IMG/VR virus record: IMGVR_UViG_3300033148_002128
Coordinates: 1 to 42,854 of that record
Source: a virus
Reading direction: 5' to 3' (one strand)
Length of the DNA stretch: 42,854 nt
The notes under the pieces are model-generated. The model searched no databases, was not told the origin of the DNA, and worked only from the letters and a program-made list of their open reading frames with translations. A program made the position numbers and the translations under genes. Positions 1,936 through 42,854 of the stretch are shown piece after piece. Positions within the stretch are counted from its first letter, which is position 1; every line of letters starts with the position of its first letter.

Positions 1936-1964
1936 TTGACTCTATAATATAATGGAACTAATAT
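1936..1964 (+). promoter_or_regulatory. Candidate rightward sigma70 promoter
   Basis: TTGACT (1936-1941), a 17-nt spacer and TAATAT (1959-1964). The -35 matches five of six consensus bases and the -10 four of six. It would transcribe toward the first 88-nt repeat. Confidence 0.4.
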
Positions 1965-2056
1965 ATTCTCAGTCCTATAGTCCTCGGGAATTCAAACATG
2001 CAGGCCCTCGAAACCCTCAGTTCAGAATAGTAAATAATTAATAACACGATACGCAA

Positions 2057-2084
2057 TTTAGATCGTAGTTTTACTTTATATAAT
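2057..2084 (+). promoter_or_regulatory. Candidate rightward promoter just before repeat copy A
   Basis: TTTAGA (2057-2062), a 16-nt spacer and a perfect TATAAT (2079-2084). Transcription would begin near 2091, about 17 nt before the 88-nt repeat, so the repeat would be at the 5' end of the transcript. Confidence 0.42.
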
Positions 2085-2107
2085 ATGTATAAGTAAAAAT
2101 ACTAAAT

Positions 2108-2195
2108 TGTCATTTGTATTGTGTTATTTGCTATTTTGAACTGAAAAGGTTCTTACCTTTTTAATATACAGTAGGAGTGACTACATCTTACACAA
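2108..2195 (+). ncRNA. 88-nt duplicated structured element, copy A
   Basis: Matches 7640-7727 at 78 of 88 positions with no gaps. Proposed fold: an outer stem TTGTGT (2119-2124) with ACACAA (2190-2195); an inner hairpin AAAAGG-TTCTTA-CCTTTT; and a weak GTAG-GAGTGA-CTAC hairpin. The ten differences fall in linkers and loops or at the edge of the outer stem. Reading it as protein gives a stop within the shared frame and changes mostly at codon positions 1 and 2, so conservation is at nucleotide level. The strand is inferred from copy B, which lies just upstream of the helicase gene. Confidence 0.6.
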
Positions 2196-2309
2196 TGTGA
2201 ATAATATTTATTTAAATGATAAATTCTATAAAAGTGTATTTTTATAGGGGAGAGTTGTAAAGAGATTTTGTTTAGATACTCTAGAATTAGAAAAACTCTC
2301 ATACGTCTA

Positions 2310-2350
2310 CCCTCCCCTCCCCCCAGAACTAGTTGGGGGTCCCCACCCCC
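2310..2350. other. C-run/G-run element with G-quadruplex potential
   Basis: The plus strand reads CCC, CCCC and CCCCCC separated by single T, then the 8-bp palindrome AACTAGTT, then GGGGG, CCCC and CCCCC. The minus strand therefore carries five runs of three or more G, enough for a quadruplex, and the plus strand can also form a CCCCC/GGGGG hairpin. Such runs are striking in a genome this A+T-rich. Confidence 0.6.
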
Positions 2351-2565
2351 ATCAATGCACTATCACTGCCTCTTACCCACATAATCAAAACGTATGTCAT
2401 ATGTAAATGAATATATTAATACCTGATAGCTATGGGCTAACCTTACATTATGACATATAGATGTATACAAATGGGTGAGGTAGAACCTCTAGGGAGCATA
2501 CATGTGGGGCTAAATTTAGGCACCAAATGAGGAGGAATGAGGAGGTATGATTAGAGATATGTATA

Positions 2566-2720
2566 AGTGTAAGCTATAGGTATACACTACTAGTAAGCTA
2601 ATAGATTACACTAAGTAGTCGAATAGTTTACACTCCCTTAATAAGTTTGATTAACCTAATAAGTGTTTGAGTACTCAAACAAATGTTCGATATCTCAAAT
2701 TTTTACGATAGTTTACACCT
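2566..2720. repeat. TACACT iteron-like repeats
   Basis: TACACT occurs at 2583-2588, 2607-2612 and 2629-2634, with a variant TACACC at 2714-2719 and an inverted copy AGTGTA at 2566-2571. The first three direct copies are 24 and 22 bp apart, about two helical turns, so they would face the same side of the helix. Initiator or repressor binding sites are possible. Confidence 0.42.
2665..2699. promoter_or_regulatory. Two operator-like palindromes
   Basis: GTTTGAGTACTCAAAC (2665-2680) is a perfect 16-bp palindrome. A related site TTCGA-TATC-TCAAA (2686-2699) has its centre exactly 20 bp away. The shared form is TTYGA-N4-TCAAA. Two sites two helical turns apart fit a dimeric regulator; the HTH protein at 4962-5327 is the obvious candidate (inference). 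Confidence 0.5.
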
Positions 2721-2753
2721 TAGCTAATAACACCACCCTGTAAATAATACTCG

Positions 2754-2818
2754 ATAACAAATAACATCGAATAAAGTGTCAACCAATAGTTGACAGGCAC
2801 CAGTTTTTCCCGTACTTT
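2754..2818. promoter_or_regulatory. Divergent promoter candidate on a TGTCAAC/GTTGACA dyad
   Basis: TGTCAAC (2777-2783) and GTTGACA (2789-2795) form a perfect inverted repeat around CAATA. Each arm contains a consensus -35 box TTGACA. Rightward: 17-nt spacer to TACTTT (2813-2818). Leftward: 17-nt spacer to TGTTAT (complement of 2754-2759). The rightward one would serve the gene at 2870 with a short leader. The dyad could equally be an operator. Confidence 0.42.
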
Positions 2819-2869
2819 CGTTACAAGTTAACTAATTAGTAGCTAACTAACACTAAAAAAGGACATAAA

Positions 2870-3094
2870 ATGAGTGATAACTACAATGGTTGGAGTAACT
2901 ACGAGACTTGGAACGTAGCTCTATGGATAGGTAATGATGAAAGTCTCTATAATATTGCTAAAGACTGTAATAATTATGACAGTTTTAGGGATATAGTAAT
3001 GGGCTTCGAGAGTTCTACTCCAGATAAAGTTAGATACAATGATGATAGATTAGATACTAGGGAGCTAGATACTATGGTCGGTGAAATAGAATGA
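2870..3094 (+). CDS. Small conserved early protein, 'NYETWNV' type
   Basis: 74 residues, preceded by AAAAAAGGAC a few bases before the ATG. The N-terminal segment NGWSNYETWNVALWIGNDE matches a Trp-rich small domain often seen in phages and plasmids; a DUF7249 assignment is from memory and unchecked. The rest is acidic. Biochemical role unknown. It is the first gene of the early block, just downstream of the palindromic control region, and its stop overlaps the next start as ATGA, so the block is translationally coupled. A host-takeover role is a guess from position. Confidence 0.85.
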   Translation: MSDNYNGWSNYETWNVALWIGNDESLYNIAKDCNNYDSFRDIVMGFESSTPDKVRYNDDRLDTRELDTMVGEIE

Positions 3095-3444
3095 ATATAT
3101 TAAGTAATGGAATACCAATGTCATTCGATGAAATTGATCGTTATGACTTACCTATTGACCACCCACAAGAGGTCATTGGGTGTTTATTGTTACAAGTAAT
3201 TGAGTTAGATGAATTAGGGGAGTCTTACGATGAATTACAAGATAAGTCTGATGATTGGGAAGAAAAGCACGATAACGAGCAAGAAAGAGCAGATATTGCA
3301 GTCGATAGAGCTGATGAACTACAGAAAGAACTAGATGATTGCGAGTCTAGGCAAGATTCTTTACAGGATATGTTAGACGAAACTAAAGACAAACTACTAC
3401 TAGTAGAGGCTAGAATAACAGAACTGGAGTTATTAAATGGATAG
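3091..3444 (+). CDS. Acidic coiled-coil early protein
   Basis: 117 residues with an ATGA overlap with the upstream gene. From about residue 45 to 115 the sequence is a long, very acidic helix with regular Leu/Ala spacing (ADELQKELDD, LQDMLDETKDKLLLVEARITELELL), so it probably forms a coiled-coil dimer. The N-terminal third is a short mixed domain. No catalytic motif or known family seen. The strong negative charge could let it mimic DNA or bind basic proteins, which is speculation. Confidence 0.8.
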   Translation: MNILSNGIPMSFDEIDRYDLPIDHPQEVIGCLLLQVIELDELGESYDELQDKSDDWEEKHDNEQERADIAVDRADELQKELDDCESRQDSLQDMLDETKDKLLLVEARITELELLNG

Positions 3445-3562
3445 GGAAGAGCTAGTAATTGAATTATTAAAATTGTGGTCAGATATCTATGAACTGGCTA
3501 TTGATGAACAACAACTAGATAAATTACACGAAATGCAAGTGTTGTTATGGGATAACAAATGA
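3437..3562 (+). CDS. 41-residue early protein
   Basis: ATG at 3437 lies inside the last codons of the previous gene (8-nt overlap), and its own stop overlaps the next start as ATGA. The product is a short, acidic, Leu-rich amphipathic helix (EELVIELLKLWSDIYELA). No family recognised. The chain of start-stop overlaps is the best evidence that it is translated. Confidence 0.6.
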   Translation: MDREELVIELLKLWSDIYELAIDEQQLDKLHEMQVLLWDNK

Positions 3563-3690
3563 TTGATAAAGAAGAAATCGAGCCCGATTACCACGATGAT
3601 TTTCTATGGATACCAGAGAGTCAAAGAGATACTAAGCAAGTCAATATTGACGATGTGTTAAGAAGGATAGAAGAAAATGAGAGTAACTAG
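3559..3690 (+). CDS. 43-residue early protein
   Basis: Begins in an ATGA overlap with the 41-residue gene and ends 14 nt inside the next one. Acidic, with a DYHDDFLWIPESQ segment and a helical C-terminus. No family recognised; kept because the start-stop coupling is continuous on both sides. Confidence 0.58.
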   Translation: MIDKEEIEPDYHDDFLWIPESQRDTKQVNIDDVLRRIEENESN

Positions 3691-3886
3691 AAAAGAAGTA
3701 GACTTTAAACCTATCACCATTACCTTAGAGACTAAAGAAGAAGCCGATTATATTTGGCATCTACTAAATGTGGGAGATCCTTTCAAGGATTACTCGGAGC
3801 AAGAGAAAGCGGAGAAACTAGATGAGAAAGTTGGTGGTGAGATATTCAATGTCTTTGACGAAATATTTAACGTGCGTAAGGGGTAA
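3677..3886 (+). CDS. Hypothetical early protein, 69 aa
   Basis: The sequence opens with a beta-like segment (FKPITITLETKEEADYIWHLLN) reminiscent of small phage proteins with an 'ITLET.EEA..L...L' core, then a Lys/Glu helix and an FNVFDEIFNV repeat at the end. No function can be assigned. The start overlaps the upstream gene, and the small membrane peptide gene starts 3 nt after the stop. Confidence 0.75.
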   Translation: MRVTRKEVDFKPITITLETKEEADYIWHLLNVGDPFKDYSEQEKAEKLDEKVGGEIFNVFDEIFNVRKG

Positions 3887-3888
3887 TT

Positions 3889-3993
3889 ATGGAAATATTA
3901 GAACCACTACTATTAACACCTAATGATTTTATGATTTATTCAGTAACTTTCTTTGTTATTACTGGGCTACTTGCCCTTTGTTTCAGTAGATAA
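3889..3993 (+). CDS. 34-residue membrane peptide
   Basis: ATG at 3889 after the run AAGGGG. Short polar N-terminus, then one hydrophobic helix of about 19 residues (MIYSVTFFVITGLLALCF) and Ser-Arg at the end. Probably a single-pass inner-membrane peptide. It closes the first early cluster, directly before a long hairpin. Small early membrane peptides in phages often act on host envelope functions or superinfection; nothing more specific can be said. Confidence 0.6.
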   Translation: MEILEPLLLTPNDFMIYSVTFFVITGLLALCFSR

Positions 3994-4003
3994 TAGCATT
4001 ATC

Positions 4004-4043
4004 GAACCTACTAACAAAAGTCGCTGTTTTTGTTAGTAGGTTC
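4004..4043 (+). terminator. Long perfect hairpin, probable terminator
   Basis: GAACCTACTAACAAAA (4004-4019) pairs perfectly with TTTTGTTAGTAGGTTC (4028-4043), a 16-bp stem with an 8-nt loop. There is only a short pyrimidine stretch after it (TCTTAA), so it may be a weak terminator or an RNase III-type processing site between the first early genes and the HNH gene. Confidence 0.6.
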
Positions 4044-4051
4044 TCTTAATG

Positions 4052-4066
4052 TTGTGATTTTCACAA
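4052..4066. promoter_or_regulatory. TTGTGA-TTT-TCACAA inverted repeat
   Basis: A perfect 6-3-6 inverted repeat ends 24 bp before the HNH gene start. Spacing and position suit either an operator or a small RNA hairpin controlling that gene. Confidence 0.4.
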
Positions 4067-4090
4067 TATGACTCTAAGAAAGGAAGGATT

Positions 4091-4741
4091 ATGGAAATAT
4101 GGAAGGATTTCCCTAGATTTGAGGGTTTATACCAGTTATCCGATAAAGGCCGTGTTAGGTCTTTAGATAGAAGGATAAAAGGTACTAACTGTATGGGTAA
4201 AAACTACAATTATATGCATAGAGGTAAGGTGTTAAAGCCTATTCTCACTGAAGGTCATCCACATTGCTCACTTAGTGTGAAGGGTAAACCATCAAATTTT
4301 ACGATTAGAGTACACGTATTAAAGAACTTCGGTACCTATGACAGCAAGCTGAGAATTAGACATATCGATGGTGACAAGCTTAATTGTGCTATTGATAATC
4401 TAGAGCAACACAGTGATAAAACTAAATGTAGTTTAGATTTACCTCATATTTGTAATAGAAATTGTGGGGCCATAGCTAAGACAGTAGACGAAGCCATGGA
4501 AATTTTCCCTAATTTTTTACTAGAAGGTAAAAGATACTATAGAGGTAATTGCCTAGAATGTAGAAATAATGAAGAGAAACTACGTATGAGAACTAGGGTT
4601 AAGGATAAGAGATATAAAAGAGCTTGTCTAAAACCAGAGAAATTTAACAGTTGTTATGACTGTGGCAATGTACAAATGAAAACTAAGAAAACATGTACTG
4701 AGTGTGAAAGCACTGAGTTAACGCAATTTGAGGAGGTGTGA
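4091..4741 (+). CDS. HNH homing endonuclease with NUMOD4 and zinc-binding tail
   Basis: 216 residues with a strong AAGGAAGGA ribosome site. Residues 2-30 (EIWKDFPRFEGLYQLSDKGR) are a NUMOD4 DNA-recognition segment. The HNH-type core follows around residues 75-115, with IRHIDGDKLN and IDNLE. The C-terminal half has paired cysteines (CRGNC, CYDCGN, CTEC) that look like zinc knuckles, not present in the other HNH genes of the replication operon. Expected to nick or cut DNA and promote its own spread. It is the only HNH gene in the early block and is coupled to the next gene by a 4-nt overlap. Confidence 0.85.
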   Translation: MEIWKDFPRFEGLYQLSDKGRVRSLDRRIKGTNCMGKNYNYMHRGKVLKPILTEGHPHCSLSVKGKPSNFTIRVHVLKNFGTYDSKLRIRHIDGDKLNCAIDNLEQHSDKTKCSLDLPHICNRNCGAIAKTVDEAMEIFPNFLLEGKRYYRGNCLECRNNEEKLRMRTRVKDKRYKRACLKPEKFNSCYDCGNVQMKTKKTCTECESTELTQFEEV

Positions 4742-4965
4742 TGATAATTACTGCTACAGGTACAAAAATTAGATATTACATTAGAGAAGGGTATGAAAAT
4801 ACTGTTAATGAGATTATCAATCAAAGACAAGAAGAGGTTAATAAACTTTTAAAAGAGAGAGATGATAAAATAGAAATGCTTAAGAAAGCTTTAAATAAAG
4901 TAGCTGATAGGGCTTGTGAGCCTTGTTGTCTTTATGCAGATGAAGCTTTAGAGGAGTTAGAATGA
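4738..4965 (+). CDS. Small coiled-coil protein with Cys pair
   Basis: 75 residues starting in a 4-nt overlap with the HNH gene. Residues 25-55 are a charged helix (RQEEVNKLLKERDDKIEMLKKALNKV) typical of coiled coils; CEPCC near the C-terminus could bind metal. No family recognised. Its stop overlaps the HTH gene start as ATGA. Confidence 0.7.
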   Translation: MMIITATGTKIRYYIREGYENTVNEIINQRQEEVNKLLKERDDKIEMLKKALNKVADRACEPCCLYADEALEELE

Positions 4966-5327
4966 CTGATAAGAAAAACCCGTCACCTTATGAGATACAA
5001 GAGCTTAGTCCTCGTCTTGGTAATAAACTTAGGTTTGCTGTGTGGCTAGAAAGATACGACATAAATATGTCCAAACTAGCTGATGAGATGGGTATCTCTC
5101 GTCAGTATCTATATGATTTAAAGCATGAAAGAAAGAACTGTAGTCTAGCAATAGCACTGTGTATTTTTTACATGAGTGGTGGACTGGTATCTATGTTCTC
5201 ACTATTAAAAGATGGTGAGGCACTCGAGCAAGACTTGCGTCCATGGATTCGTGACACAAATACGTTAAATAGATCAAAGATCTCGAGGGGGAACCAGCTT
5301 ACACGCTACCACCTTCGCCGTCTTTAG
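4962..5327 (+). CDS. Cro/C1-type helix-turn-helix protein
   Basis: 121 residues. A helix-turn-helix lies at about residues 33-62 (INMSKLADEMGISRQYLYDLKHER), with the Ala-Asp-x-x-Gly-Ile-Ser-Arg turn of the XRE/Cro family. A hydrophobic segment (AIALCIFYMSGGLVSMFSLL) follows and a basic tail ends the protein. Likely a DNA-binding regulator and the only repressor candidate in the genome; the palindromes at 2665-2699 are plausible sites. Last gene of the early block; its end lies 2 bp from the converging zincin gene. Confidence 0.75.
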   Translation: MTDKKNPSPYEIQELSPRLGNKLRFAVWLERYDINMSKLADEMGISRQYLYDLKHERKNCSLAIALCIFYMSGGLVSMFSLLKDGEALEQDLRPWIRDTNTLNRSKISRGNQLTRYHLRRL

Positions 5328-5329
5328 AG

Positions 5330-5623
5330 TTATTTCCTTTTAAATCTTAAGTTGAATGTCTCTACTAGAAAAGTGGAGACATTTTCAGCAATAACCTCTT
5401 CTAGTTCTGTTGATACATCTGATTGCCTAACTCCTGTTCTATTACATATAGCGTGGATTAACTCATGTAGTAGTACTTGCATCTCACAATTAACGAGAGT
5501 TATTTGCGACTTCTTAGGTTCATACAATCCTTCTAAATCGTTCCCATCATCATCCTTAAGCTCTTTAGAAAGTTTTATGGTTACGGTCTTACCGAAAACA
5601 TCTATAGATTTAGGAGGTTTCAT
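5330..5623 (-). CDS. Mini zinc metallopeptidase-like protein (HELIH)
   Basis: 97 residues. HELIH at 53-57 is a gluzincin-type HExxH zinc site, and the ELEEVIAE helix at 73-80 supplies a candidate third Glu ligand. Small single-domain HExxH proteins are common in phages (SprT/IrrE-like fold), but their substrates are generally unknown. Translation is coupled to the upstream phosphoesterase by an ATGA overlap. Candidate roles are processing of a phage protein or attack on a host regulator; neither is shown here. Confidence 0.75.
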   Translation of the reverse strand: MKPPKSIDVFGKTVTIKLSKELKDDDGNDLEGLYEPKKSQITLVNCEMQVLLHELIHAICNRTGVRQSDVSTELEEVIAENVSTFLVETFNLRFKRK

Positions 5624-6387
5624 ATCTTCTCCCTGAAATCATAATAATTATCTCCCCAAGTAGCAGTATGTCCGTTTAGGTGTATTTGGTGTATGTGAAA
5701 TTCATCGTCATTTATTATATCGGCGATTATACAGGCTTTCTGCCATTGTTCATGGCCCTTCATAAAGGCATAGACTAAATTATCATAAGCATTAATATTT
5801 CCCAACCAACCGCTAAACCATGCGTGATATATCTCTCCAGACCCACCAGTAGCACAGCTATGTTGAACCCTGTGAGTACAGGCATAAATGTAGCTAACAT
5901 CCATTTTCTTTAGTAGTGACGTTCTGGCACCATTTACTCCATATGAAGGTGGAGAGTGGACTACTTTTAATTTATTATTTAATGAGTAAGGTATCTGATA
6001 GGGTAGCCAATCTATATTTAAGGATTCTAAGCCTAGTTGCTTCTCTAATCTTAATATATTCCAAAACAATGGACATTTATCCATTACGAATCGATCTAAT
6101 CTATGTTCGTGATTGCCGTACTGCATCAATATCTTAATGTCTGGGAAGGCTTTTCTTAGTTTGGTGAGGAAATCTTTACCTGCTTGAAGCTCACTTTCTA
6201 GTGTTTCTTTAATATCAGGGTGTTTGGGGCCATGAGAATTTAATGTGTAGAAGTCCAGTATATCCCCATTTAATACTAGCTCATCTATCTTAGCATCTTT
6301 AAAGATATTCAATGCCAGTGCTATAGCTTTGTCATCTTGATAAGGGATATGAAGGTCGTTTATTATTCCAACTCGCCAGGTACTCAT
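5620..6387 (-). CDS. Calcineurin-like metallophosphoesterase
   Basis: 255 residues from ATG 6387; a TTG one codon upstream is an alternative, but AAGGA is better placed for the ATG. Motifs of the two-metal phosphoesterase fold are clear: D11-x-H13, G41-D42, GNHE at 91-94, VVH at 142-144 and a late TH (171-172). Such phage enzymes are usually DNA exonuclease or phosphodiesterase-like, or remove phosphates from nucleotides; the substrate cannot be read from sequence. Lies in the leftward island between the small terminase and the zincin. Confidence 0.88.
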   Translation of the reverse strand: MSTWRVGIINDLHIPYQDDKAIALALNIFKDAKIDELVLNGDILDFYTLNSHGPKHPDIKETLESELQAGKDFLTKLRKAFPDIKILMQYGNHEHRLDRFVMDKCPLFWNILRLEKQLGLESLNIDWLPYQIPYSLNNKLKVVHSPPSYGVNGARTSLLKKMDVSYIYACTHRVQHSCATGGSGEIYHAWFSGWLGNINAYDNLVYAFMKGHEQWQKACIIADIINDDEFHIHQIHLNGHTATWGDNYYDFREKI

Positions 6388-6422
6388 CAAACATCCTTGT
6401 TATATGATTAATTATGTCTATT

Positions 6423-6872
6423 CTACAGTAAGTCGCTATCGTCCTCAATAACTTTCGACTCTACTTCTATAGGTAAATTAGCCTCTAATTCATCTAAACT
6501 ATCAGGAACTCCAGTAGCTATTTGGAATACTACGTTACCTTCACTCTCTATAATTTGTTTATCTTGGTAAACTTCGTTGTGTTGATTCTTTAGTAGGAAG
6601 GTTAAAGTAGAGCTATTACCTTTAGTCTCTCCCGTAGCCTGATCTATTGCCATATCTTCCATAGCACCTAAGTTCATTGACTGACCTATCTCTACAGCTT
6701 CCTTAAAATCCTCATGCTCCCCCATCCATTTCTCTACTTTCTTAGTAGTAACACCTACGGAACCTGCGAAACTAGCTATGCTCTTCCCTGTTTTAAGGTG
6801 GTTTAGTACCTTAAGTATGAATTTATCAGTATATCCTCCCTTATAAGGCATGATCGGTTCTCTAAACTCCAT
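6423..6872 (-). CDS. Terminase small subunit-like HTH protein
   Basis: 149 residues. The N-terminal half is a helix-turn-helix (IASFAGSVGVTTKKVEKWMGEHEDF) followed by a helical segment AVEIGQSMNLGAMEDMAI and FLLKN, the arrangement of phage small terminases that recognise packaging DNA. The C-terminal third is acidic and ends EDDSDLL, the tail motif shared with several replication proteins. Its start overlaps the upstream nuclease stop by one base (TAATG). It sits far from terL, on a separate island, which is unusual; a general DNA-binding regulator is the alternative. Confidence 0.62.
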   Translation of the reverse strand: MEFREPIMPYKGGYTDKFILKVLNHLKTGKSIASFAGSVGVTTKKVEKWMGEHEDFKEAVEIGQSMNLGAMEDMAIDQATGETKGNSSTLTFLLKNQHNEVYQDKQIIESEGNVVFQIATGVPDSLDELEANLPIEVESKVIEDDSDLL

Positions 6873-7327
6873 TATAGTAATTCCTCTGCTTCTAGTTCAC
6901 TTCTCATCTTCTCAGTATATTTAACTCTAATCTCTCTAAGATCCATTGCATTTTTATCGTCAACATACCCTACAGCGAACTGCATAAAGTCTATAAAATC
7001 CGTAAAATCCATAGTTATCAATAAAGGTTTACCATTCTTCTTATGAACTACGGTTGGAGTTGTACCATCTCGCCTGGAGTCTGTACGTGCTTGCTCCATA
7101 GCATTATTTATATTTAGATTCTCTACAGCTTTAGCTTCAAAGTTAAAGGGTAAATCAGTATGTATGTCATGAGAGAATAGACCGTCGAATTGTACAGCTC
7201 TACGTGCTTCAAAACCTCTATCTTTAAGTATATTAGCTATACGCCTCTCCATAACCTTCCCCTTATTACGAGAAGCTTTACCTATCTGGGAACGTGTCCT
7301 TTTCTTCTTACCTACTAATTCCGTCAT
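6872..7327 (-). CDS. PD-(D/E)XK nuclease, Holliday-junction-resolvase-like
   Basis: 151 residues with AGGAG upstream of ATG 7327. Candidate catalytic residues follow the Hjc/PD-(D/E)XK order: E27 in helix VMERRIANILKDRGF, D54 in SHDIH, and E64-x-K66 in FNFEAK. The N-terminus is very basic (KKKRTRSQ..K), suiting DNA binding. Likely cuts branched DNA during replication or before packaging, consistent with being the first gene of an island that also holds a small-terminase-like gene. It ends EAEELL, a weaker version of the shared acidic-Leu tail. Confidence 0.75.
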   Translation of the reverse strand: MTELVGKKKRTRSQIGKASRNKGKVMERRIANILKDRGFEARRAVQFDGLFSHDIHTDLPFNFEAKAVENLNINNAMEQARTDSRRDGTTPTVVHKKNGKPLLITMDFTDFIDFMQFAVGYVDDKNAMDLREIRVKYTEKMRSELEAEELL

Positions 7328-7349
7328 CCTTACTCCTATCTTAAGTTAG

Positions 7350-7378
7350 ATTATATATCTTCTTGACTTTAAAGTAAA
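7350..7378 (-). promoter_or_regulatory. Promoter of the leftward nuclease/TerS island
   Basis: On the minus strand: TTTACT (complement of 7373-7378), a 17-nt spacer and a perfect TATAAT (complement of 7350-7355). The start codon at 7327 lies 22 bp beyond the -10, so the leader is short. Confidence 0.62.
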
Positions 7379-7458
7379 ATTGAGCAATATTCATTAAGTG
7401 GGAGTCCTTACCCACATTCTTTATATTTGCACATGTAAAGACCTTTTTTAGAGTTGAT

Positions 7459-7490
7459 AAAGCCTCCTTAATTGGAGGCTTTGTTATTTC
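7459..7490 (+). terminator. Strong hairpin terminator
   Basis: AAAGCCTCC (7459-7467), loop TTAATT, GGAGGCTTT (7474-7482), then GTTATTTC. A 9-bp perfect stem with U-rich flank. It insulates the divergent island and replication operon; any rightward transcript that starts upstream of it would make a short RNA. Confidence 0.72.
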
Positions 7491-7493
7491 TCC

Positions 7494-7523
7494 TTGACAC
7501 TTCATTAAAAAATAAACTAACCT
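7494..7523 (+). promoter_or_regulatory. Weak candidate promoter of replication operon
   Basis: Consensus -35 TTGACA (7494-7499) lies right after the terminator; the -10 is poor (TAACCT at 7518-7523, 18-nt spacer), and a better TACAAT at 7529 is too far. The same arrangement of TTGACA then an A-rich ribosome site occurs before the gene at 2870. Confidence 0.33.
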
Positions 7524-7548
7524 AGCCCTACAATAAAAAAGGGACTAC

Positions 7549-7713
7549 ATGAACATTAATTCTAATTCGACATTCAACCACCAAGTACCAGTTTTAAATA
7601 AAACTTCAAGTACGTGTATAGAATCAAGAAAAGAAGTAATGTCATTTGTATTGTGTAAAGTGCTAATTCGAAATGAAAAGGTTCCTACCTTTTTAATATT
7701 CAGTAGGAGTTAA
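7549..7713 (+). CDS. 54-residue ORF overlapping repeat copy B
   Basis: ATG at 7549 has a good ribosome site (AAAAAAGGGA, 5 nt upstream). The first half is Asn/Ser/Thr-rich, and the second half is encoded by the 88-nt repeat. In copy A the same frame is interrupted by TGA, and substitutions do not favour third positions, so the repeat is not conserved for this peptide. It may be a leader peptide whose translation affects folding of the RNA element ahead of the helicase gene, or chance. Confidence 0.4.
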   Translation: MNINSNSTFNHQVPVLNKTSSTCIESRKEVMSFVLCKVLIRNEKVPTFLIFSRS

Positions 7714-7727
7714 TACATCTTACACAA
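7640..7727 (+). ncRNA. 88-nt duplicated structured element, copy B
   Basis: Same length as 2108-2195 and identical at 78 of 88 positions. Here the outer stem is a perfect 8 bp: TTGTGTAA (7651-7658) with TTACACAA (7720-7727). The inner hairpin AAAAGG-TTCCTA-CCTTTT is intact. The closing strand ends 31 bases before the helicase start codon, so the element would be in the helicase 5' leader and could control its translation or transcript end (inference). Confidence 0.62.
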
Positions 7728-7758: not shown

Positions 7759-9285
7759 ATGGAAGAATACTTAGAACTTTTTAATGAGAAGGATATTACC
7801 TCTCGTGGGCAAAGATTAAACATCGACGGAGTTGAGTTTACGTTATCTACATTTAGGAAGGAAATATTCAATATACTGGATATGGACTCTAAAGTAGTAA
7901 CAGATCTTCTATTTATGGAGAAGAAGGATTCTAGTAAGTTTAACACTGTGACTAAGAGTATCTTCCAGGCCATAAAGAATGAGCTTAAACCATCTAGAGA
8001 AACAGGATTAGAGAATAGCGAGTGCCTACAGAACTTAACTCCAGTAACTAGTATGAGAGAAGATACTATAATGCTAATAGATGAAGCTACCCAGTTTGTT
8101 ACTGAGGTAAACTATAAATCTTGGCTTAGAACCTTGTCTATGGATGTTAGGAAGATTGTAATTACTGAACCTATACCTATGGCAGAGTTTTTCTACGACC
8201 CCTACAATCCAGATATAAAGATCTTAACCAAGGATACTCTAAGTGGGGAGATGGTATTCATTAATACCTATGTTAAGCCTTACTGGATGAAAGGCGCTGA
8301 AGCTAGTGATAAGTGTCCAGAGGTATTGTCTACCTTTATGAAGCATTTGTTACCTAATAGCGAACAAAGAAAATACTGCTTACAATGGATGGCCGAAGCC
8401 GTATTCGGCAGGAATGAGACATACCTAGTATTAAATGGAGATAAAGGTGTCGGGAAGAACACTATTTATGAGATATTAAAGGCAGTGATTGCCCCCAGGT
8501 ATTCAGTCACAGCTCCAGCTTCGTTAACCACTAGTCATTTTAACAGTGTCTTAATGAATAAAAGGCTCATTCTTTTAGATGAGTACAAGATAACTAGAAG
8601 TAATCACCTATTCTTAAAGAAAATCATTAATAAGAATCAAACTATTGAGAGAAAAGGGCAAGATGCCGATACAGAAATGGAGACTTTTAACAGCTTTATG
8701 GTTTTCCATAATTCTGTATCTGATATGTATGTCGAAAAGGATGATAGAAGGTTCTCAGTATTAGATTTAACACATAAGAATCTAACTGAGATATGGACTC
8801 CAGATTATATACATGAACTTATGATTGACCTAAATGATCCCAAATCTGAGATCATTAAAGAGATAGGCCAGTACTTAATGCATATAAGTAAAGAAGAATT
8901 TAATACAGTTACTCCTTTTAAAGGAGAAAAATTCCATGAGATCGTAGAATATCATATGCCTACTTGGCTACAAATAGTAGTGGCGATGGTCGAGAATGGG
9001 GAAGTTAAGAATGGTGTTATCTCTTTCAAGAAAGAAATAGAGAAGAGATTATCTAATGAGATGATGGGTAAGAAGAAGATCCAGTGGAGAAAATCTACGC
9101 TGCAGAAGACTCTTAAAGAATATCGATATAGGGACCGATTAGTATTAGGAGAGATTACTTCTAACGGAACTGGTAGGGCCTTACAATTAGAGATAAATAA
9201 AGATCTATTAGAAGAATTTGGATATGAAGAAAATACTGAAGATGACTTTGGTTTACTAGAAGAGGAAAGTGGGAGCTTATTATGA
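7759..9285 (+). CDS. SF3-type replicative helicase (D5/DUF5906-like)
   Basis: 508 residues; AGAGGG 5 nt before ATG. The ATPase core has Walker A GDKGVGKNT (227-235), Walker B ILLDE (271-275), a sensor Asn in VFHNS (318) and an Arg-finger candidate DDRRF (328-332). This is the superfamily 3 layout of phage helicase or primase-helicase proteins. No primase motif is evident in residues 1-150. The tail is strongly acidic and ends EESGSLL, similar to other replication proteins here. First large gene of the replication operon, just after the 88-nt RNA-like element; its stop overlaps the next start (ATGA). Confidence 0.85.
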   Translation: MEEYLELFNEKDITSRGQRLNIDGVEFTLSTFRKEIFNILDMDSKVVTDLLFMEKKDSSKFNTVTKSIFQAIKNELKPSRETGLENSECLQNLTPVTSMREDTIMLIDEATQFVTEVNYKSWLRTLSMDVRKIVITEPIPMAEFFYDPYNPDIKILTKDTLSGEMVFINTYVKPYWMKGAEASDKCPEVLSTFMKHLLPNSEQRKYCLQWMAEAVFGRNETYLVLNGDKGVGKNTIYEILKAVIAPRYSVTAPASLTTSHFNSVLMNKRLILLDEYKITRSNHLFLKKIINKNQTIERKGQDADTEMETFNSFMVFHNSVSDMYVEKDDRRFSVLDLTHKNLTEIWTPDYIHELMIDLNDPKSEIIKEIGQYLMHISKEEFNTVTPFKGEKFHEIVEYHMPTWLQIVVAMVENGEVKNGVISFKKEIEKRLSNEMMGKKKIQWRKSTLQKTLKEYRYRDRLVLGEITSNGTGRALQLEINKDLLEEFGYEENTEDDFGLLEEESGSLL

Positions 9286-10572: not shown

Positions 10573-11067
10573 ATGAGCAACCTAAAAGAGGTGGACGGGT
10601 TCGATGGCAGGTATTTAATATCTGAGTGCGGAGTCGTAATAAGCCTTTGTGGTAATCTTCCGCGTGAACTAAAAACTCGTATTATGCCTCTTGGTTATGT
10701 TGTCGTTGGGCTTCATAGAAAGAAACAAATAGGAAAAATTGTTCACAGACTTGTTGCTGAAGCGTTTATTCCAAATCCAAAAGGGTCGCCAGATGTAAAC
10801 CATATTGACGGAAACAAACTAAATAATAATGTTTCCAACCTTGAATGGTGTAGCAGATCTGACAATATAAGACACGCACACCGTAATGGCTTAATGAACC
10901 ATCGTGGATCTAAAAACCCACTGGCCGTTATTAATGAAGATATCGCACGACAGATAAAGGTAAAAATTTCAAATAAAGAAAGAGACTGCGACATAGCGAG
11001 ACATTTTAAAGTAGGTTATTGGATAGTAGGCGACATTAAAAGAAAGAAAACGTGGATTAATGTATAA
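10573..11067 (+). CDS. HNH homing endonuclease
   Basis: 164 residues with AGAGGA before ATG. N-terminal NUMOD4-like segment (VDGFDGRYLISECGVVISL), then the HNH core with VHRLVAEAF (first His), VNHIDGNKLNNNVSNLEW, and a C-terminal helix-turn-helix (CDIARHFKVGYWIVGDIKR) for DNA contact. Expected to make a site-specific nick or break in related phages lacking the gene. Codon use resembles the 10230 gene and the 11652 HNH gene rather than the polymerase. Confidence 0.88.
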   Translation: MSNLKEVDGFDGRYLISECGVVISLCGNLPRELKTRIMPLGYVVVGLHRKKQIGKIVHRLVAEAFIPNPKGSPDVNHIDGNKLNNNVSNLEWCSRSDNIRHAHRNGLMNHRGSKNPLAVINEDIARQIKVKISNKERDCDIARHFKVGYWIVGDIKRKKTWINV

Positions 11068-11651: not shown

Positions 11652-12185
11652 ATGGAAAACTGGAAAGATATTGATAATTATAAGGGCCTATACAGAGTTA
11701 GTGACACTGGCAGGGTTTACAGTGTCCGAAGAAAATTAATGCTTAGGCCTGGCGTCGTAGGGATCGGGTATAAACAAGTTGTGTTAAAAGTGCGCGGCAA
11801 CAATAAACAGTACAAGGTTCACAGGCTCGTAGCTCTTGCTTTTTGCGAAAAATCACCAGGGTGTAACATTATTAATCACCTTAATGGTGACAAATTAAAT
11901 AATTATGCATCCAACCTTGAGTGGACAACACATAGTGGCAACATGCTTCATGCAATGGAAACAGGATTAAATAACAACCGTGGAGAAAATTGCAATCTTA
12001 GTAAATTTAAAAAGGAGAAGATATTGAAGATAAAACAAATGATTAAAAACGGACACAGAAATATAGACATAGCTCGAAAGTGTGAGGTTAGCGACGGTGT
12101 TGTTAGCAGTATTAAGACAGGCAAGACATGGAGATGGTTAAAAATCCTTGAAACAGGAAATACCCCAGAAAAGAAGGAGGGTTAA
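11652..12185 (+). CDS. HNH homing endonuclease
   Basis: 177 residues. NUMOD4 segment MENWKDIDNYKGLYRVSD, HNH core VHRLVALAF plus INHLNGDKLNNYASNLEW, and C-terminal helix-turn-helix IDIARKCEVSDGVVSSIKTGKTW. Ribosome site is weak. Ends the cassette of differing codon use. The final codons overlap an AAGGAGG ribosome site that serves the next small gene. Confidence 0.88.
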   Translation: MENWKDIDNYKGLYRVSDTGRVYSVRRKLMLRPGVVGIGYKQVVLKVRGNNKQYKVHRLVALAFCEKSPGCNIINHLNGDKLNNYASNLEWTTHSGNMLHAMETGLNNNRGENCNLSKFKKEKILKIKQMIKNGHRNIDIARKCEVSDGVVSSIKTGKTWRWLKILETGNTPEKKEG

Positions 12186-12311: not shown

Positions 12312-12333
12312 AAAAGTATAAGGTAATGTGCAA

Positions 12334-14376
12334 ATGAAACAACGCTATGCAACGATAGATTTTGAATACACTGATGTGTCTGAGGAGAAACTACGACTAG
12401 TTTGTTGTTCTCTACAGTGGGGAGATACTCTAGAAGAGTACTGGTTATTGAACAACCCGGAAGCTGTTAGAAACCTACAAGAAACTCTAGGTTGCCTAGA
12501 CATAGAAGGTTATATCTTCTTAGCCCATGCAGCTTCGGCAGAGGCAAGTTCTCTTATCTCTATGGGTTTAGATGCTACAAAGTTTAAATGGATTTGCACA
12601 AGGGCCGAATTTTTGTGCCTTTCCAACCACAACCACGATTTGATGTACGGTACCCACCTAGTTAACGGTAGGATTAAGACTCTTTACCCTCCAAAGCCCA
12701 AATGGCAACAGACAGAAGAAGATAAGAAACGTAAGTCTGGAGGGAAGTTGACTCATTCATTAGCTCAACTAGTGTTTAAGATGCTAGGTAAGCAGATAGA
12801 TACTGAACATAAAACTAAGATGAGAGATATAATAATCTCTGGTGACGAAGACCTTATAGAAGAGAATAGAAAAGCTATTCAAGACTACTGTTCTTCAGAT
12901 ATTAAATACCTACTACCTTGTTTTAGAAAGATAGTAGGGCATTACAAAGAATTATTAACTAAAGAAGATTTTAAATTACTTAAGGGTGACATGCTTCTCC
13001 GTGGTAGAGCTATGGCTGATACCGCTAAGATGGAGAGATTTGGATATCCTATAGCATTTAATAATTTAAGAAACTTTGCACTACAACTTCAAGACATTAT
13101 GAATGAGTGTGCAGAGGATATAAATAGACAGTTTCCAGATATGAACGTATTCGTAATGAATAAGTCAGGCCCTTCAAAGGGATCATATACTATGAAACAA
13201 GCTCCGATTAAGGAGTGGATAGCAACTTTACCTTATGCTGATAACTGGGTATTGACCGATAAGAAAGCATATTCTTTAAGCTTAGATGCTTTTCAGAAGT
13301 TCTTTAACTTTAGCCATAACTATCCAGAGGGTAACTTCGGGGCTCAAATACTCAGATACTTAGTACTTAAGCAGAGTGTATTTGGATTCTCGCCTAATAA
13401 GAAAGGTAAGAATTTTTGGGATGCTGTAGGTAAAGATAAGAGAGTTAGACCTTATCTTAATCCTTATGGAAGTCAGTCGGCTAGGTTTCAACCTCCGAGT
13501 ACTACATTCTTATTTTTGAAAAGTGCCTGGTATCGAAGTTTGTGTGTTCCAAGAAAAGGGAAAATGATAGTAGGTATCGACTATAAGTCAGAGGAGTTTT
13601 TAATTTCCGGTCTATGGGCAAGAGATATGGCCATGATAGAAGCCTATAAGTCTGGAGATGTGTACATGGCTTATGCAATGGACGCTGGAATGGCACCAGT
13701 CGGAGCTACTAAAGCTACTCACGGATTAATAAGAGATGCGGCAAAACCTGCTGTACTTGGAATATCTTACTTGATGACTAAATATGGTCTAAGTATCGAT
13801 ATGACTAATAAACTAGGTAGAGAAGTAGATGAAGACGAAGCTCAAGAGTTTATTGATTCTTTCAATGAGGCATACCATGTACACTATGATGCTGTTCAAG
13901 ACTTCCTAGAGGATTTCTCAGATGCTGGTTACTTGAGACTAGGTGACGGATGGTGTTTTTTTGGGGACCAAGAGAACTTTAGATCTGTTGCTAACACTCC
14001 AAAGCAGGGAGCAGGGTCTTGTATCTTAAGAAAAGCTATACAACTATCTCACGATAAAGGTTTAGATATATGTTTCCCTTTACACGATGCGTTATACTTT
14101 GAAGTGGATCTTAACGATTGGGAAGCCGTTAATACCGCTGTTGAATGTATGAAGGAAGCCTTTGTACACTATTACAAAGGTACTGACATGGAGAAATATG
14201 CAGAGCTTATCATGGTAGATGTAGAAGCTTGGAGTCCAGAGCTAGATAAAAAAACTATAAACTTATCCGATGGCCAAGAGGTATCTGTAGAGTCTATACA
14301 TATAGATCCTAGAGGGAAGAAGGAATATGATAAATTCAGTAAATATTTTAAGAAAGCGGGATGGATGCTTTTATGA
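12334..14376 (+). CDS. Family A DNA polymerase with 3'-5' exonuclease domain
   Basis: 680 residues from ATG 12334; AAGGT 9 nt upstream suits this better than the in-frame GTG at 12328. Exonuclease motifs: D9-x-E11 and YCSSD near 186-190. Polymerase motif A IVGIDYKSEEF (Asp 416), motif B R467-x3-K471 ... LGISY, motif C HDA (584-586). Two departures from E. coli Pol I: Leu where Phe762 would be, and Ala in place of Glu883 after the catalytic Asp. This should be the replicative enzyme. An HNH gene begins within its stop codon. No 5'-nuclease domain. Confidence 0.93.
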   Translation: MKQRYATIDFEYTDVSEEKLRLVCCSLQWGDTLEEYWLLNNPEAVRNLQETLGCLDIEGYIFLAHAASAEASSLISMGLDATKFKWICTRAEFLCLSNHNHDLMYGTHLVNGRIKTLYPPKPKWQQTEEDKKRKSGGKLTHSLAQLVFKMLGKQIDTEHKTKMRDIIISGDEDLIEENRKAIQDYCSSDIKYLLPCFRKIVGHYKELLTKEDFKLLKGDMLLRGRAMADTAKMERFGYPIAFNNLRNFALQLQDIMNECAEDINRQFPDMNVFVMNKSGPSKGSYTMKQAPIKEWIATLPYADNWVLTDKKAYSLSLDAFQKFFNFSHNYPEGNFGAQILRYLVLKQSVFGFSPNKKGKNFWDAVGKDKRVRPYLNPYGSQSARFQPPSTTFLFLKSAWYRSLCVPRKGKMIVGIDYKSEEFLISGLWARDMAMIEAYKSGDVYMAYAMDAGMAPVGATKATHGLIRDAAKPAVLGISYLMTKYGLSIDMTNKLGREVDEDEAQEFIDSFNEAYHVHYDAVQDFLEDFSDAGYLRLGDGWCFFGDQENFRSVANTPKQGAGSCILRKAIQLSHDKGLDICFPLHDALYFEVDLNDWEAVNTAVECMKEAFVHYYKGTDMEKYAELIMVDVEAWSPELDKKTINLSDGQEVSVESIHIDPRGKKEYDKFSKYFKKAGWMLL

Positions 14377-14933
14377 TAGAGGTATGGAAAGACATACCGA
14401 ACTACGAAGGGCTGTATCAAGCTAGTAATAAGGGCAGGATTAAGTCTTTAAGCTATAGGTATCATACTGGTAGGAGATGGTTTACGAAGAAGGGGAAGAT
14501 ACTCACCTTTAATAATCCTTCTAGTAATGGATATTATATGGTCTGCCTGTCCAAAAATAGTGTTAGGGAATATGGGACAGTACATAGGTTTATAGGGTTA
14601 GCTTTCTTAGACCTTTCTGAAGGTAAAGTGGTTAACCATATTGATGGAAACAAATTAAATAACCACCTTACTAATCTGGAAGCTTGTACTAATAGCGAGA
14701 ACATACTACATGCAATCCGTATGGGCTTCCATAAGAGAAAACACGGGCCTAATAAGAATATAGATATTGTAAAAGAGATAAAGACTTGGCTAGAGGAAGG
14801 TTTTAAACCAGGGGAAATAGAGAAAGTATATTCTCTGACTGCCAGGAGTATAAGAGGTATAAGAGCTGGCCATAATTGGTCTGAAGTAAATAGTTATAAC
14901 GTAGAGGCAGAGCCTCAAAGGAGCAAAGCATGA
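14373..14933 (+). CDS. HNH homing endonuclease fused to polymerase stop
   Basis: 186 residues from ATG 14373, which overlaps the polymerase TGA; an in-frame ATG at 14361 is possible but the NUMOD4 start MIEVWKDIPNYEGLYQASNK fits 14373. HNH core VHRFIGLAF and VNHIDGNKLNNHLTNLEA; C-terminal helix-turn-helix (PGEIEKVYSLTARSIRGIR). Sits between polymerase and SSB-like genes, with a 4-nt overlap into the latter, so insertion has kept translation coupling intact. Confidence 0.88.
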   Translation: MIEVWKDIPNYEGLYQASNKGRIKSLSYRYHTGRRWFTKKGKILTFNNPSSNGYYMVCLSKNSVREYGTVHRFIGLAFLDLSEGKVVNHIDGNKLNNHLTNLEACTNSENILHAIRMGFHKRKHGPNKNIDIVKEIKTWLEEGFKPGEIEKVYSLTARSIRGIRAGHNWSEVNSYNVEAEPQRSKA

Positions 14934-16393: not shown

Positions 16394-16939
16394 ATGATCA
16401 CACTAATTAAGTACGGAGTAACTAAAAACCTAGGCGACTACAACTCAGAGAGAATAGATGCCGAATATCAACTATCAGATACTGACTGCCCTAACAAAGC
16501 TATGGCTAACCTAAAGCATTTCGTTAATACTGGATGTGTTGTAAAAGCTAATGAGCCATCACCAAAGACTACTACAGAAACTAAAGTAGATGAGGATGTT
16601 AAACTTCCAGAAACTCCAGTTAAGACTGAAGAAGAGAAGAAGCCAGCTCAGAAAGTCACTAAGAAAGCCGCTAAGAAGACTACTAAGAAAGCTACTGGTA
16701 AGAAGGTAACTCCTAAAGCTAACATCGTTTATTCCAGGGATGAGAAGACTCATAAAGACGAACTCTCAAAGATCTTATCTGAAGAATTTCCAAATTGGAA
16801 AACGGAATTACTAGCTCAAGCTAAAGCATTATCTGGTAAACTAGTAGGTACAGATATCTATAGTTTTAAAGGTGAACTTCTTGATAGCTTTAAAGAAGCT
16901 GTGACAGAGGGAATGACATGTGACGCTAGTGACCTCTAA
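16394..16939 (+). CDS. DNA-associated protein with Lys/Ala-rich linker
   Basis: 181 residues with AAGGAG upstream. The N-terminal domain (ITLIKYGVTKNLGDYNSERIDAEYQL) is a small domain of a type I recall from other phage replication operons. Residues 55-115 are low complexity, Lys/Thr/Ala-rich (KKAAKKTTKKATGKK), like histone H1-type DNA-binding tails. A helical C-terminal domain ends TCDASDL, related to the shared tail. Probably binds DNA together with the upstream exonuclease; exact role unknown. The next HNH gene starts 20 nt before its stop. Confidence 0.72.
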   Translation: MITLIKYGVTKNLGDYNSERIDAEYQLSDTDCPNKAMANLKHFVNTGCVVKANEPSPKTTTETKVDEDVKLPETPVKTEEEKKPAQKVTKKAAKKTTKKATGKKVTPKANIVYSRDEKTHKDELSKILSEEFPNWKTELLAQAKALSGKLVGTDIYSFKGELLDSFKEAVTEGMTCDASDL

Positions 16940-17405
16940 CGAGATCTGGAAAGACATTAAAGAATATGAAGGGCTCTACCGTGTAAGTAATCACGGTAAA
17001 GTCTTCTCTATGCGTAAAACCAGACTTCTAAAGATAGGGTTTGGTAGGATATACGGAAATGTCGAACTTAGACATAATGGAACTAGGAAAAGAATAGCTG
17101 TGCACAGATTAGTAGCTATGCATTTTGTAGAAAACCCACGATCTTTGAATATGGTTAACCATTTAGATGAGGACAAGACCAATAACATACACTCTAACTT
17201 AGAGTGGGTTACTCCAAAGGAGAATACTAGGCACTCTTGGAGATTAAACCCTCTAAGGTTTAAATATAAAAGATCCCTAACCGACGACCAAGCTAGAGAT
17301 GTGAAGTATTCTAAGAAAACCTACAACCAACTTGCAGAAGAATACAGTATAGATAAGAAAACAATATGGGCTATAAGGAAAGGTACAACCTACAAGGAAT
17401 TATGA
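16920..17405 (+). CDS. HNH homing endonuclease
   Basis: 161 residues from GTG 16920, with GAGGG 8 nt upstream; GTG 16929 is an alternative. NUMOD4 segment EIWKDIKEYEGLYRVSNHGK, HNH core VHRLVAMHF and VNHLDEDKTNNIHSNLEW (Glu replaces the usual Gly before Asp-Lys), C-terminal helix-turn-helix YNQLAEEYSIDKKTIWAIRKG. Its TGA overlaps the helicase ATG, so it is inserted exactly between coupled replication genes. Confidence 0.88.
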   Translation: MTLVTSNEIWKDIKEYEGLYRVSNHGKVFSMRKTRLLKIGFGRIYGNVELRHNGTRKRIAVHRLVAMHFVENPRSLNMVNHLDEDKTNNIHSNLEWVTPKENTRHSWRLNPLRFKYKRSLTDDQARDVKYSKKTYNQLAEEYSIDKKTIWAIRKGTTYKEL

Positions 17406-18683: not shown

Positions 18684-19166
18684 ATGGAGACATGGAAGGA
18701 AATAGAAGATACGTATTATGAGGTAAGCAATAACGGAAGAGTTAAATCTAACTCATCAAGACCCTGCATACTTAAATTGAGGAATGATAAATACGGGTAT
18801 AAAAGAGTAACTCTTCATAGAGGTAGCGTCTTAGCCACCGTGTTGATACACAGACTAGTGGCCTCACACCACATACCGAACCCTGATGGGAAGCCCTGTG
18901 TTAACCATATAGATGGAGATAAAGCCAATAATTACGTCAGTAATTTAGAGTGGTGCACGCATAGTGAGAATACGATACACTCAATAAAGATAGGGACTAC
19001 TCCAAATAGAGAAGGAGTAAATAACGGGAGAGCTACCCTTACCGCTGATGAAGTGAAAAGAATAAGAGCCTCGAACAGAAGTATTAAGGCTTTGTCCCTG
19101 AGGTTCAAAGTTAGTTACGGTATTATATACAGAATAAAAAACAACATAACTTATAAGGAGATTTAA
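18684..19166 (+). CDS. HNH homing endonuclease
   Basis: 160 residues; starts 1 nt after the helicase stop. Short NUMOD4 segment METWKEIEDTYYEVSNNGR, HNH core LIHRLVASHH and VNHIDGDKANNYVSNLEW, C-terminal helix-turn-helix IKALSLRFKVSYGIIYRIK. Its TAA overlaps the next ATG (TAATG). Together with the gene at 16920 it brackets the helicase on both sides. Confidence 0.88.
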   Translation: METWKEIEDTYYEVSNNGRVKSNSSRPCILKLRNDKYGYKRVTLHRGSVLATVLIHRLVASHHIPNPDGKPCVNHIDGDKANNYVSNLEWCTHSENTIHSIKIGTTPNREGVNNGRATLTADEVKRIRASNRSIKALSLRFKVSYGIIYRIKNNITYKEI

Positions 19167-37645: not shown

Positions 37646-38602
37646 TTAAAGTTCTTTACAGATTACTTCAACAACTTGAACTTCTTCCATTCTTGAAGAA
37701 CCCATAGTCAGTGATCCGTATACTTGATTAGCAAAATGCTTATCTTTTCTTTCGTCGATACGACCCATAACTTCTTTCCCTAATGCACAAAGTACAGCAG
37801 AGTTAGCAGTAAAAGCAACACAACGTCTACCTTCAGCAGCAGTTACAGTACCAGAAGTAGCCCCTGGAAGCGTAGCTCCAGTATCTTTATCATAGTAATG
37901 ATCAGCAGAAAGGAATGGTAGTAATTCAGTAGACTCAAACTTGAATCCCATGAATGTATCAGCTTCACCATCAACTAGAGCTTTAACAGAGTTAAAGTCT
38001 GAAGATGTAACTTCTGTTGAACCTAAAAGGTCATCAGCTTGTTGAGCAGCATAAGCGAAAATTACCTTTTCACCTTTCTTGATTGCTTCTTCTTGCTTAA
38101 ATTTCTTTCTTACAGCTCTAAGAGTCTTAATGTTAAGACCAGTACCTATAAGTAGAGTACCGTCATGAGCTGCAATTTTTTGAGAATCTGGAAGAGGAAC
38201 AACATCTGTACCTTTCTTTCCACCATAAGCATTCCCTAAAAGACCTTCGATAACAACCTCATCGATATTTCTACCGAGGGCCATTGCGATTGCTTTAGCA
38301 TACTCATTCTCTGGATCCATGATTGTTCTGATTTTATCTTCTTTATCAACTAAATCCGCATCATAGAAGTCTTCCATAGTAACCATACGTCTACTATGAG
38401 GAGTATCAGAGAATACGATGTCAGAATGTCTTCCTTCTTTTCTCTTTACTGATCTCTTTCCAATTCTGTCCCAAAATGCAGACTCAGCCGCTTGGCTTTC
38501 CATTCTACAGTATTGTCTAAGTCTTGAACCTTCTTGTTGTGCTAAGTGCATTACGTTTGATGAAAACTGATCCACCATTGACGTAGTAATTTGTTGTGAC
38601 AT
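37646..38602 (-). CDS. Major capsid protein
   Basis: 318 residues, AGGAG well placed. The sequence, including MVTMEDFYDADLVDKEDKIRTIMDPENEYAKAIAMALGRNIDEVVIEGLLGNA, fits the phage capsid family often labelled Phage_capsid_2, with an HK97-type fold. Forms the icosahedral shell. It has its own promoter and leader and follows a terminator, so it is transcribed separately at high level. Confidence 0.9.
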   Translation of the reverse strand: MSQQITTSMVDQFSSNVMHLAQQEGSRLRQYCRMESQAAESAFWDRIGKRSVKRKEGRHSDIVFSDTPHSRRMVTMEDFYDADLVDKEDKIRTIMDPENEYAKAIAMALGRNIDEVVIEGLLGNAYGGKKGTDVVPLPDSQKIAAHDGTLLIGTGLNIKTLRAVRKKFKQEEAIKKGEKVIFAYAAQQADDLLGSTEVTSSDFNSVKALVDGEADTFMGFKFESTELLPFLSADHYYDKDTGATLPGATSGTVTAAEGRRCVAFTANSAVLCALGKEVMGRIDERKDKHFANQVYGSLTMGSSRMEEVQVVEVICKEL

Positions 38603-42659: not shown

Positions 42660-42854
42660 TTAAAATTCGAATATATCGTAACCCGAGTCGGCAGCAACTG
42701 GCAAGTCACTATATCCTTGACGCCCAGAGCCAAAGCCTGGAAAATAATCACAGGCGAAGTATCTAAACCCATCGGCAGCATGAGATGCCCAATTATGTAA
42801 AGGCTTATCTGAATACACCTTTAGTTTAGTGTCAAACTTTCTCTCATATGCAGC
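42660..42854 (-). CDS. terL: Terminase large subunit, C-terminal part
   Basis: This is the 3' end of the gene that starts at 1263. It includes the 114-bp overlap and then adds the tail PGFGSGRQGYSDLPVAADSG and a few more residues, ending DIFEF before a TAA stop (42660-42662). An HNH endonuclease gene begins 12 bp downstream, a typical position for a homing endonuclease next to a conserved target gene. The long Gly/Asp-rich, aromatic-ended tail may be the portal- or head-docking segment; that role is inferred from where terminase tails usually act. Confidence 0.9.
   Translation of the reverse strand, partial: AAYERKFDTKLKVYSDKPLHNWASHAADGFRYFACDYFPGFGSGRQGYSDLPVAADSGYDIFEF
42741..42854. repeat. 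Right copy of 114-bp terminal overlap
   Basis: Exact copy of 1-114. Removing one copy gives a circle of 42740 bp. From the start codon at 1263 through the join to the stop at 42660-42662 there are 448 codons in one frame, which is strong internal evidence that the join is correct. Confidence 0.97.

Follow-up and report, generated by a model that had tools for sequence, protein, structure and literature searches.

Phages of the lambda type carry two nut RNA sites per genome, located in the early leaders and presenting a hairpin after a short single-stranded stretch, and the intergenic leaders of the T7 genome contain several similar long imperfect hairpins that are RNase III sites; in P4, whose helicase-primase is the alpha protein, two related cis sites, ori and crr, lie several kilobases (kb) apart and are made of short repeated decamers. 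In phage HK022, two similar structured antitermination RNAs of ~70 nucleotides (nt), putL and putR, are found in the early leaders of transcripts made by the host RNA polymerase; they consist of two stem-loops each and serve the early operons PL and PR, one site being located just 3′ of its promoter and the other ~270 nt 3′ of the start site (PMC9378689). The subject of this study is an 88-nt element that occurs twice, as copies A and B, in IMG/VR record IMGVR_UViG_3300033148_002128 (42,854 nt, hereafter the window), a complete-looking 42.9-kb contig of an uncultured phage of a podovirus-like family. The put sites would represent its closest working analogy, and the element is tentatively interpreted here, with a probability of roughly 0.45, as a duplicated RNA leader module that is peculiar to this lineage and acts in cis; this reading is favored because the element folds in a strand-specific fashion, has diverged in a non-coding manner and is positioned at the heads of two blocks running in the same direction.

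The duplication itself is real. As reported in the initial annotation, the two copies align without gaps with 78 of 88 positions identical (E = 2.7e-28 in a search within the genome), their flanks are dissimilar and the similarity is confined to 2108–2195 and 7640–7727; when the whole window is compared with itself by BLAST, this repeat (E ~5e-26) is the sole strong non-coding one besides a 114-nt overlap of the contig ends. The ten differences are scattered, without clustering (p = 0.66), and spare, apart from a stem edge, the two stems that had been named for the element (TTGTGT/ACACAA and AAAAGG/CCTTTT), a circumstance that constitutes weak evidence (hypergeometric P = 0.034) since the 24 stem positions entering the calculation were picked after the fact. 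Relative to the open reading frame (ORF) that runs through copy B, the codon positions affected are 1, 3, 1, 1, 1, 2, 2, 2, 1 and 3, with eight of the ten changes in a first or second position, and the same frame contains a TGA in copy A. On these two grounds the element is not kept as protein, as already maintained, and a duplicated protein segment or small coding gene is ruled out; a promoter shared by the copies was also considered and dropped, inspection by eye having yielded no good pair of hexamers within the element. Both copies contain the 18-base-pair (bp) dyad AAAAGGT-N4-ACCTTTT, a perfect 7-4-7 palindrome of which no mismatch-free occurrence exists elsewhere in this genome.

When folded alone as plus-strand RNA and compared with 200 dinucleotide shuffles, copy A (−22.8 kcal/mol) and copy B (−20.2 kcal/mol) each outperform 200 of 200 shuffles (z-scores in Table 1), the minus-strand folds being weaker (z −0.70 for A and −2.75 for B). 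A GC-corrected ranking among all the 88-nt segments of the genome places A and B within the best 0.5% and 1.8%, respectively, on the plus strand, the corresponding minus-strand figures being 29% and 6.7%. The arms of the two stems originally attributed to both copies are present in both, and the inner hairpin H1, in which element positions 35–43 pair with 48–56, is shared; the outer stem, on the other hand, is predicted to form in copy B only, where it pairs positions 12–19 with 81–88, is accompanied by inner helices and reaches the full 8 bp that had been claimed for it, the whole hairpin being retained in three longer transcript contexts. In copy A folded alone, positions 2–17 would pair with 59–74, an arrangement in which copy B would lack 3 of the 15 pairs, whereas the outer stem has a pair probability of 0.000 and its formation would cost 7.5 kcal/mol (−15.3 versus −22.8); copy B, for its part, prefers the outer stem by ~4 kcal/mol. 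Because the strand 12–17 has two mutually exclusive partners (59–64 or 83–88), the two-site leader switch envisaged by the initial annotation is possible, but a model in which the copies have diverged to opposite partners, so that the early and replication transcripts would respond oppositely to the same signal, appears very improbable.

The predicted folding of copy A is affected by a long inverted repeat (2017–2060/2102–2144) that was missed in the initial annotation and of which the 5′ half of copy A forms one arm, no inverted partner being found for copy B; the 5′ half of the element occurs, in this way, three times, one of them inverted. The local alignment score of the inverted repeat is 32, as against a maximum of 26 in shuffles, and beats 1000 of 1000. 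The plus-strand RNA of 2015–2146 is predicted to reach −46.2 kcal/mol (z about −10) and the minus-strand RNA −30.5 kcal/mol (z about −5), the long hairpin being stronger on the plus strand because transition mismatches become G-U pairs there (5 such pairs, versus 1 on the minus strand). Since the 5′ half of copy A has an inverted partner upstream, the predicted fold of this copy depends on the transcript start. In this connection, the TATAAT in front of copy A, originally offered as promoter evidence, loses its value, for it lies in the loop of the inverted repeat and promoter-like sites are no commoner than in shuffles (27 versus 24.6). A candidate rightward promoter, TTGACT-17-TAATAT, is situated further upstream; its spacing is identical in the sister contig L003, while the sequence past the predicted start aligns poorly with that of the window.

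Copies A and B have the same orientation, which is also that of the block following each of them, and each is found where a packaging block reading leftward meets a block reading rightward. Copy A is located in the control region that separates the leftward large-terminase (late) block from the rightward early block, whose first ORF of more than 60 amino acids begins at 2870. Copy B is flanked on one side by a leftward block with the small terminase and a RusA-like resolvase and on the other by the rightward replication block, its end being separated by 31 nt, as first stated, from the helicase ATG at 7759.

If the element is an RNA leader, rightward transcription would traverse it at the start of the early block (copy A) and of the helicase-led replication block (copy B), and the nascent plus-strand leader RNA would fold into a stable hairpin capped, or followed, by H1. 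For copy B this hairpin would be the 88-nt element itself; the 5′ half of copy A would instead join the longer hairpin with 2017–2060, provided that transcription starts at the 1936–1964 promoter. These structures would then most likely set the fate of the transcript carrying them, either by enabling the host RNA polymerase to pass downstream terminators (no RNA polymerase gene was recognised in this phage) or by serving as processing or stability structures. The duplication, its non-coding character, the placement of the copies and their plus-strand folding beyond that of shuffles are shown, whereas transcription, action at the level of RNA and the decision for antitermination or for processing are inferred.

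As with the HK022 put sites, there are two similar non-coding copies, lying in this case upstream of two rightward blocks, in whose leader transcripts they may be included. Unlike the put RNAs, however, the copies do not display two adjacent stem-loops, since B would form one long hairpin and A another, with H1 alone in common; furthermore, A and B face the same way and have no Rfam match. As to the terminator readthrough that characterises put, strong terminator-like hairpins are found here 3′ of copy A, but no strong plus-strand terminator is found 3′ of copy B before the end of its block, which would leave an antitermination role for B without an obvious target. Because of this, and because the element fails to qualify as a put site, a processing or stability role is at least as likely as antitermination.

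The likeness to other systems is more distant. The TGCTATTTT preceding H1 in copy A faintly resembles the boxA of lambda nut, but the match is weak (6–7 of 9 positions by eye) and poorer in B, H1 is not boxB-like, and no N-like protein was identified. Long predicted hairpins in intergenic leaders recall the T7 RNase III sites, although these are more numerous, the present genome having two full related sequences. Finally, P4 comes to mind in that a small genome with one helicase/primase protein contains a pair of related, putatively cis-acting sites separated by several kb, but the 88-nt element lacks iterons.

A number of results weigh against an RNA leader. In addition to the different folds of the two copies and the missing terminator 3′ of B, the consensus fold of A and B is weak, with zero covariation and 0 compensatory pairs (two copies only), and the predicted fold of copy A varies with the transcript ends chosen. 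When the same ten changes are placed at random, an equally stable fold is obtained in 1.5–11% of trials, or in 5–24% if H1 is protected, so that selection keeping the structure is only suggested. Moreover, the element was found in none of the family members with readable equivalent regions, as judged by BLAST, profile search and Smith-Waterman alignment with shuffles, and two relatives show no strongly structured leader in front of their helicase gene, the best z-scores there being −2.3 and −2.4. The premise of the initial annotation that this is a phage RNA is supported as far as plus-strand folding and lack of coding signal are concerned but not by the comparison of the copies, which fold differently and display no compensatory change, while nothing in the analysis speaks for a trans-acting pair, the other option that it had raised.

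The family of relatives used in these comparisons was collected by terminase search. The closest one, L003 (terminase 96% identical), aligns with the window up to ~1975 and its contig ends just short of copy A; the neighbouring DNA is 81–89% identical, yet the two sequences are nearly unalignable just past 1975. Relative G004 has the same gene order at both junctions, and the element was not found in its control regions. No homologues were detected in annotated phages, nor in viral contigs searched by exact patterns, and the few relatives that emerged from searches with the helicase, the polymerase and the concatenated early genes were distant, if any were obtained at all. The core hairpin pattern gave seven matches in bacterial and archaeal genomes, limited to the ~20-nt core and looking like chance. 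The covariance-model search recommended at the outset was carried out with models of both alternative folds and retrieved, from ~730 kb of related loci, the two copies of the window alone; without homologues, covariation could be assessed between two copies only and is, as mentioned above, zero. In Rfam there was no gathering-level match in the window, and the plus strand of A and B remained unmatched even at E up to 5.

The same facts can be read in terms of DNA, and the main alternative, tenable though rather doubtful, is that the element is a duplicated control module containing operator, promoter or origin sites bound by a phage protein, such as the HTH protein encoded at 4962–5327 or the helicase. 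The putative binding sites would be the 18-bp dyad and the inverted TAACACAAT-like arms. The position of A and B at junctions of oppositely oriented blocks is consistent with such a module, as are the perfection of the dyad in both copies and its uniqueness in the genome, the threefold occurrence of the 5′ half and the presence in the early block of a Cro/C1-like HTH protein, albeit one that is weakly recognised (E 0.014). Furthermore, the relatives bear lineage-specific palindromes or iterons of their own in the equivalent control region (TAACACAATGTGTTA twice in L006, GTTAAC in L010 and a 30-nt inverted repeat in L004), and CACAATGTG, with which copy A ends, recurs in the palindromes of G004; copy B, however, is devoid of CACAATGTG. 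An identity extending over 88 nt far exceeds what one or two operator sites would need, and a strand-specific fold advantage is not expected of DNA sites; with DNA parameters the fold of copy A is no better than shuffles (z −0.75).

That the element stems from a recent duplication or gene conversion with little or no conserved function, its fold strength being in part a by-product of the inverted repeat of A, seems unlikely, although its absence from the family members examined, the fast turnover of the control region seen in the comparison with L003, the unclustered substitutions and the fact that each copy has lost pairs belonging to the fold of the other would fit this origin. Two distant podoviruses, Venkman and P26218, have unrelated duplicated intergenic stretches (71 and 57 nt), which indicates that duplicated control modules are not unusual. 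What argues against an accident of this kind is that the plus-strand folds of A and B have both remained unusually stable and that the copies occupy equivalent regulatory positions rather than random places. The element is regarded as a well-defined, if unproven, candidate for an RNA leader; were it one, another small phage, of a lineage remote from lambda, would be marking chosen transcripts by a repeated RNA structure, much as HK022 uses put. The repeat would provide, at the same time, a compact test system in which a near-identical sequence is placed in two contexts with two predicted folds.

Table 1. Positions in the window of the two copies, their predicted structures and neighbouring features
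Feature	Position	Strand	Remarks
Candidate rightward promoter TTGACT-17-TAATAT	1936..1964	+	same spacing kept in sister contig L003
Partial inverted copy (C) of the 5′ half of the element, 5′ arm of inverted repeat	2017..2060	−	inverted repeats I2 and I3
TATAAT, proposed promoter	2079..2084	+	inside loop of long inverted repeat
3′ arm of inverted repeat, overlapping 5′ half of copy A	2102..2144	+	53 predicted pairs
Copy A of the 88-nt element	2108..2195	+	direct repeat 78/88; plus-strand RNA fold z −3.66
Long alternative helix of copy A, 5′ strand	2109..2124	+	pairs with 2166–2181 when A folds alone
Inner hairpin H1 (AAAAGGU/ACCUUUU), copy A	2142..2163	+	9 pairs, loop UCUU
Long alternative helix of copy A, 3′ strand	2166..2181	+	predicted fold
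Strong terminator-like hairpin in early rightward block, 3′ of copy A	4004..4043	+	
Strong terminator-like hairpin between early block and copy B, 3′ of copy A	7455..7486	+	
ORF of 54 amino acids, in frame through copy B	7549..7713	+	no family match; probably no conserved protein
Copy B of the 88-nt element	7640..7727	+	direct repeat 78/88; plus-strand RNA fold z −3.31
Outer stem of copy B, 5′ arm TTGTGTAA	7651..7658	+	predicted P = 0.92; stable in three longer contexts
Inner hairpin H1, copy B	7674..7695	+	9 pairs, loop UCCU
Outer stem of copy B, 3′ arm TTACACAA	7720..7727	+	predicted fold
Helicase/primase-like gene, 3′ of copy B	7759..9285	+	PHROG 1156 DNA primase, E 6e-19

Some further observations concern the control regions of the relatives. 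That of G004 (L006 9141–9234, 8602–8634 and 9270–9334) contains a tandem 47-nt repeat bearing the perfect TAACACAATGTGTTA palindromes, together with three TGATAGATAAAATCTATCA-like palindromes. The TAACACAATGTGTTA palindrome was considered as a shared operator and discarded, the full 15-mer performing no better than shuffles and only the CACAATGTG with which copy A terminates being matched exactly in the window. Tandem GTTAAC-rich iterons are located upstream of the terminase gene in L010 (96–190). The duplicated stretches of the podoviruses are at 6328–6398 and 38110–38179 in Venkman (L046) and at 96–151 and 13263–13319 in P26218 (L044), and one of these sets has a repeated CTCTAGA.

In the AT-rich control region of the window itself, a very GC-rich patch (CCCTCCCCTCCCCCC...GGGGGTCCCCACCCCC, 2309–2351) could form a strong hairpin and possibly a G-quadruplex on the minus strand, and a perfect 18-bp palindrome, TGTTTGAGTACTCAAACA (2664–2681), is an operator candidate. 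Between the small-terminase block and copy B, two successive strong plus-strand hairpins with a terminator-like tail (z down to −9) occupy 7398–7486.

The phage genes recognised in the contig comprise those for a portal-type head-tail adaptor, tail, terminase, exonuclease, DNA polymerase and helicases. The ends of the contig overlap exactly over 114 nt (1–114 and 42741–42854) inside the large-terminase gene, from which it follows that the contig is circular in the assembly and that this gene spans its ends. The nearest annotated phage relative of the DNA polymerase (12328–14376; 28%) is a phage of Silvanigrella aquatica, which hints at the group to which the host belongs, and Bdellovibrionota genomes, tried as a route to the host, gave weak polymerase matches only. 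Lastly, the rightward blocks contain six related HNH-type endonuclease-like genes (4091–4741, 10573–11067, 11652–12185, 14361–14933, 16920–17405 and 18684–19166), one of which was assigned by PHROG and the others by mutual similarity and by matches to one HNH-like gene of L036.

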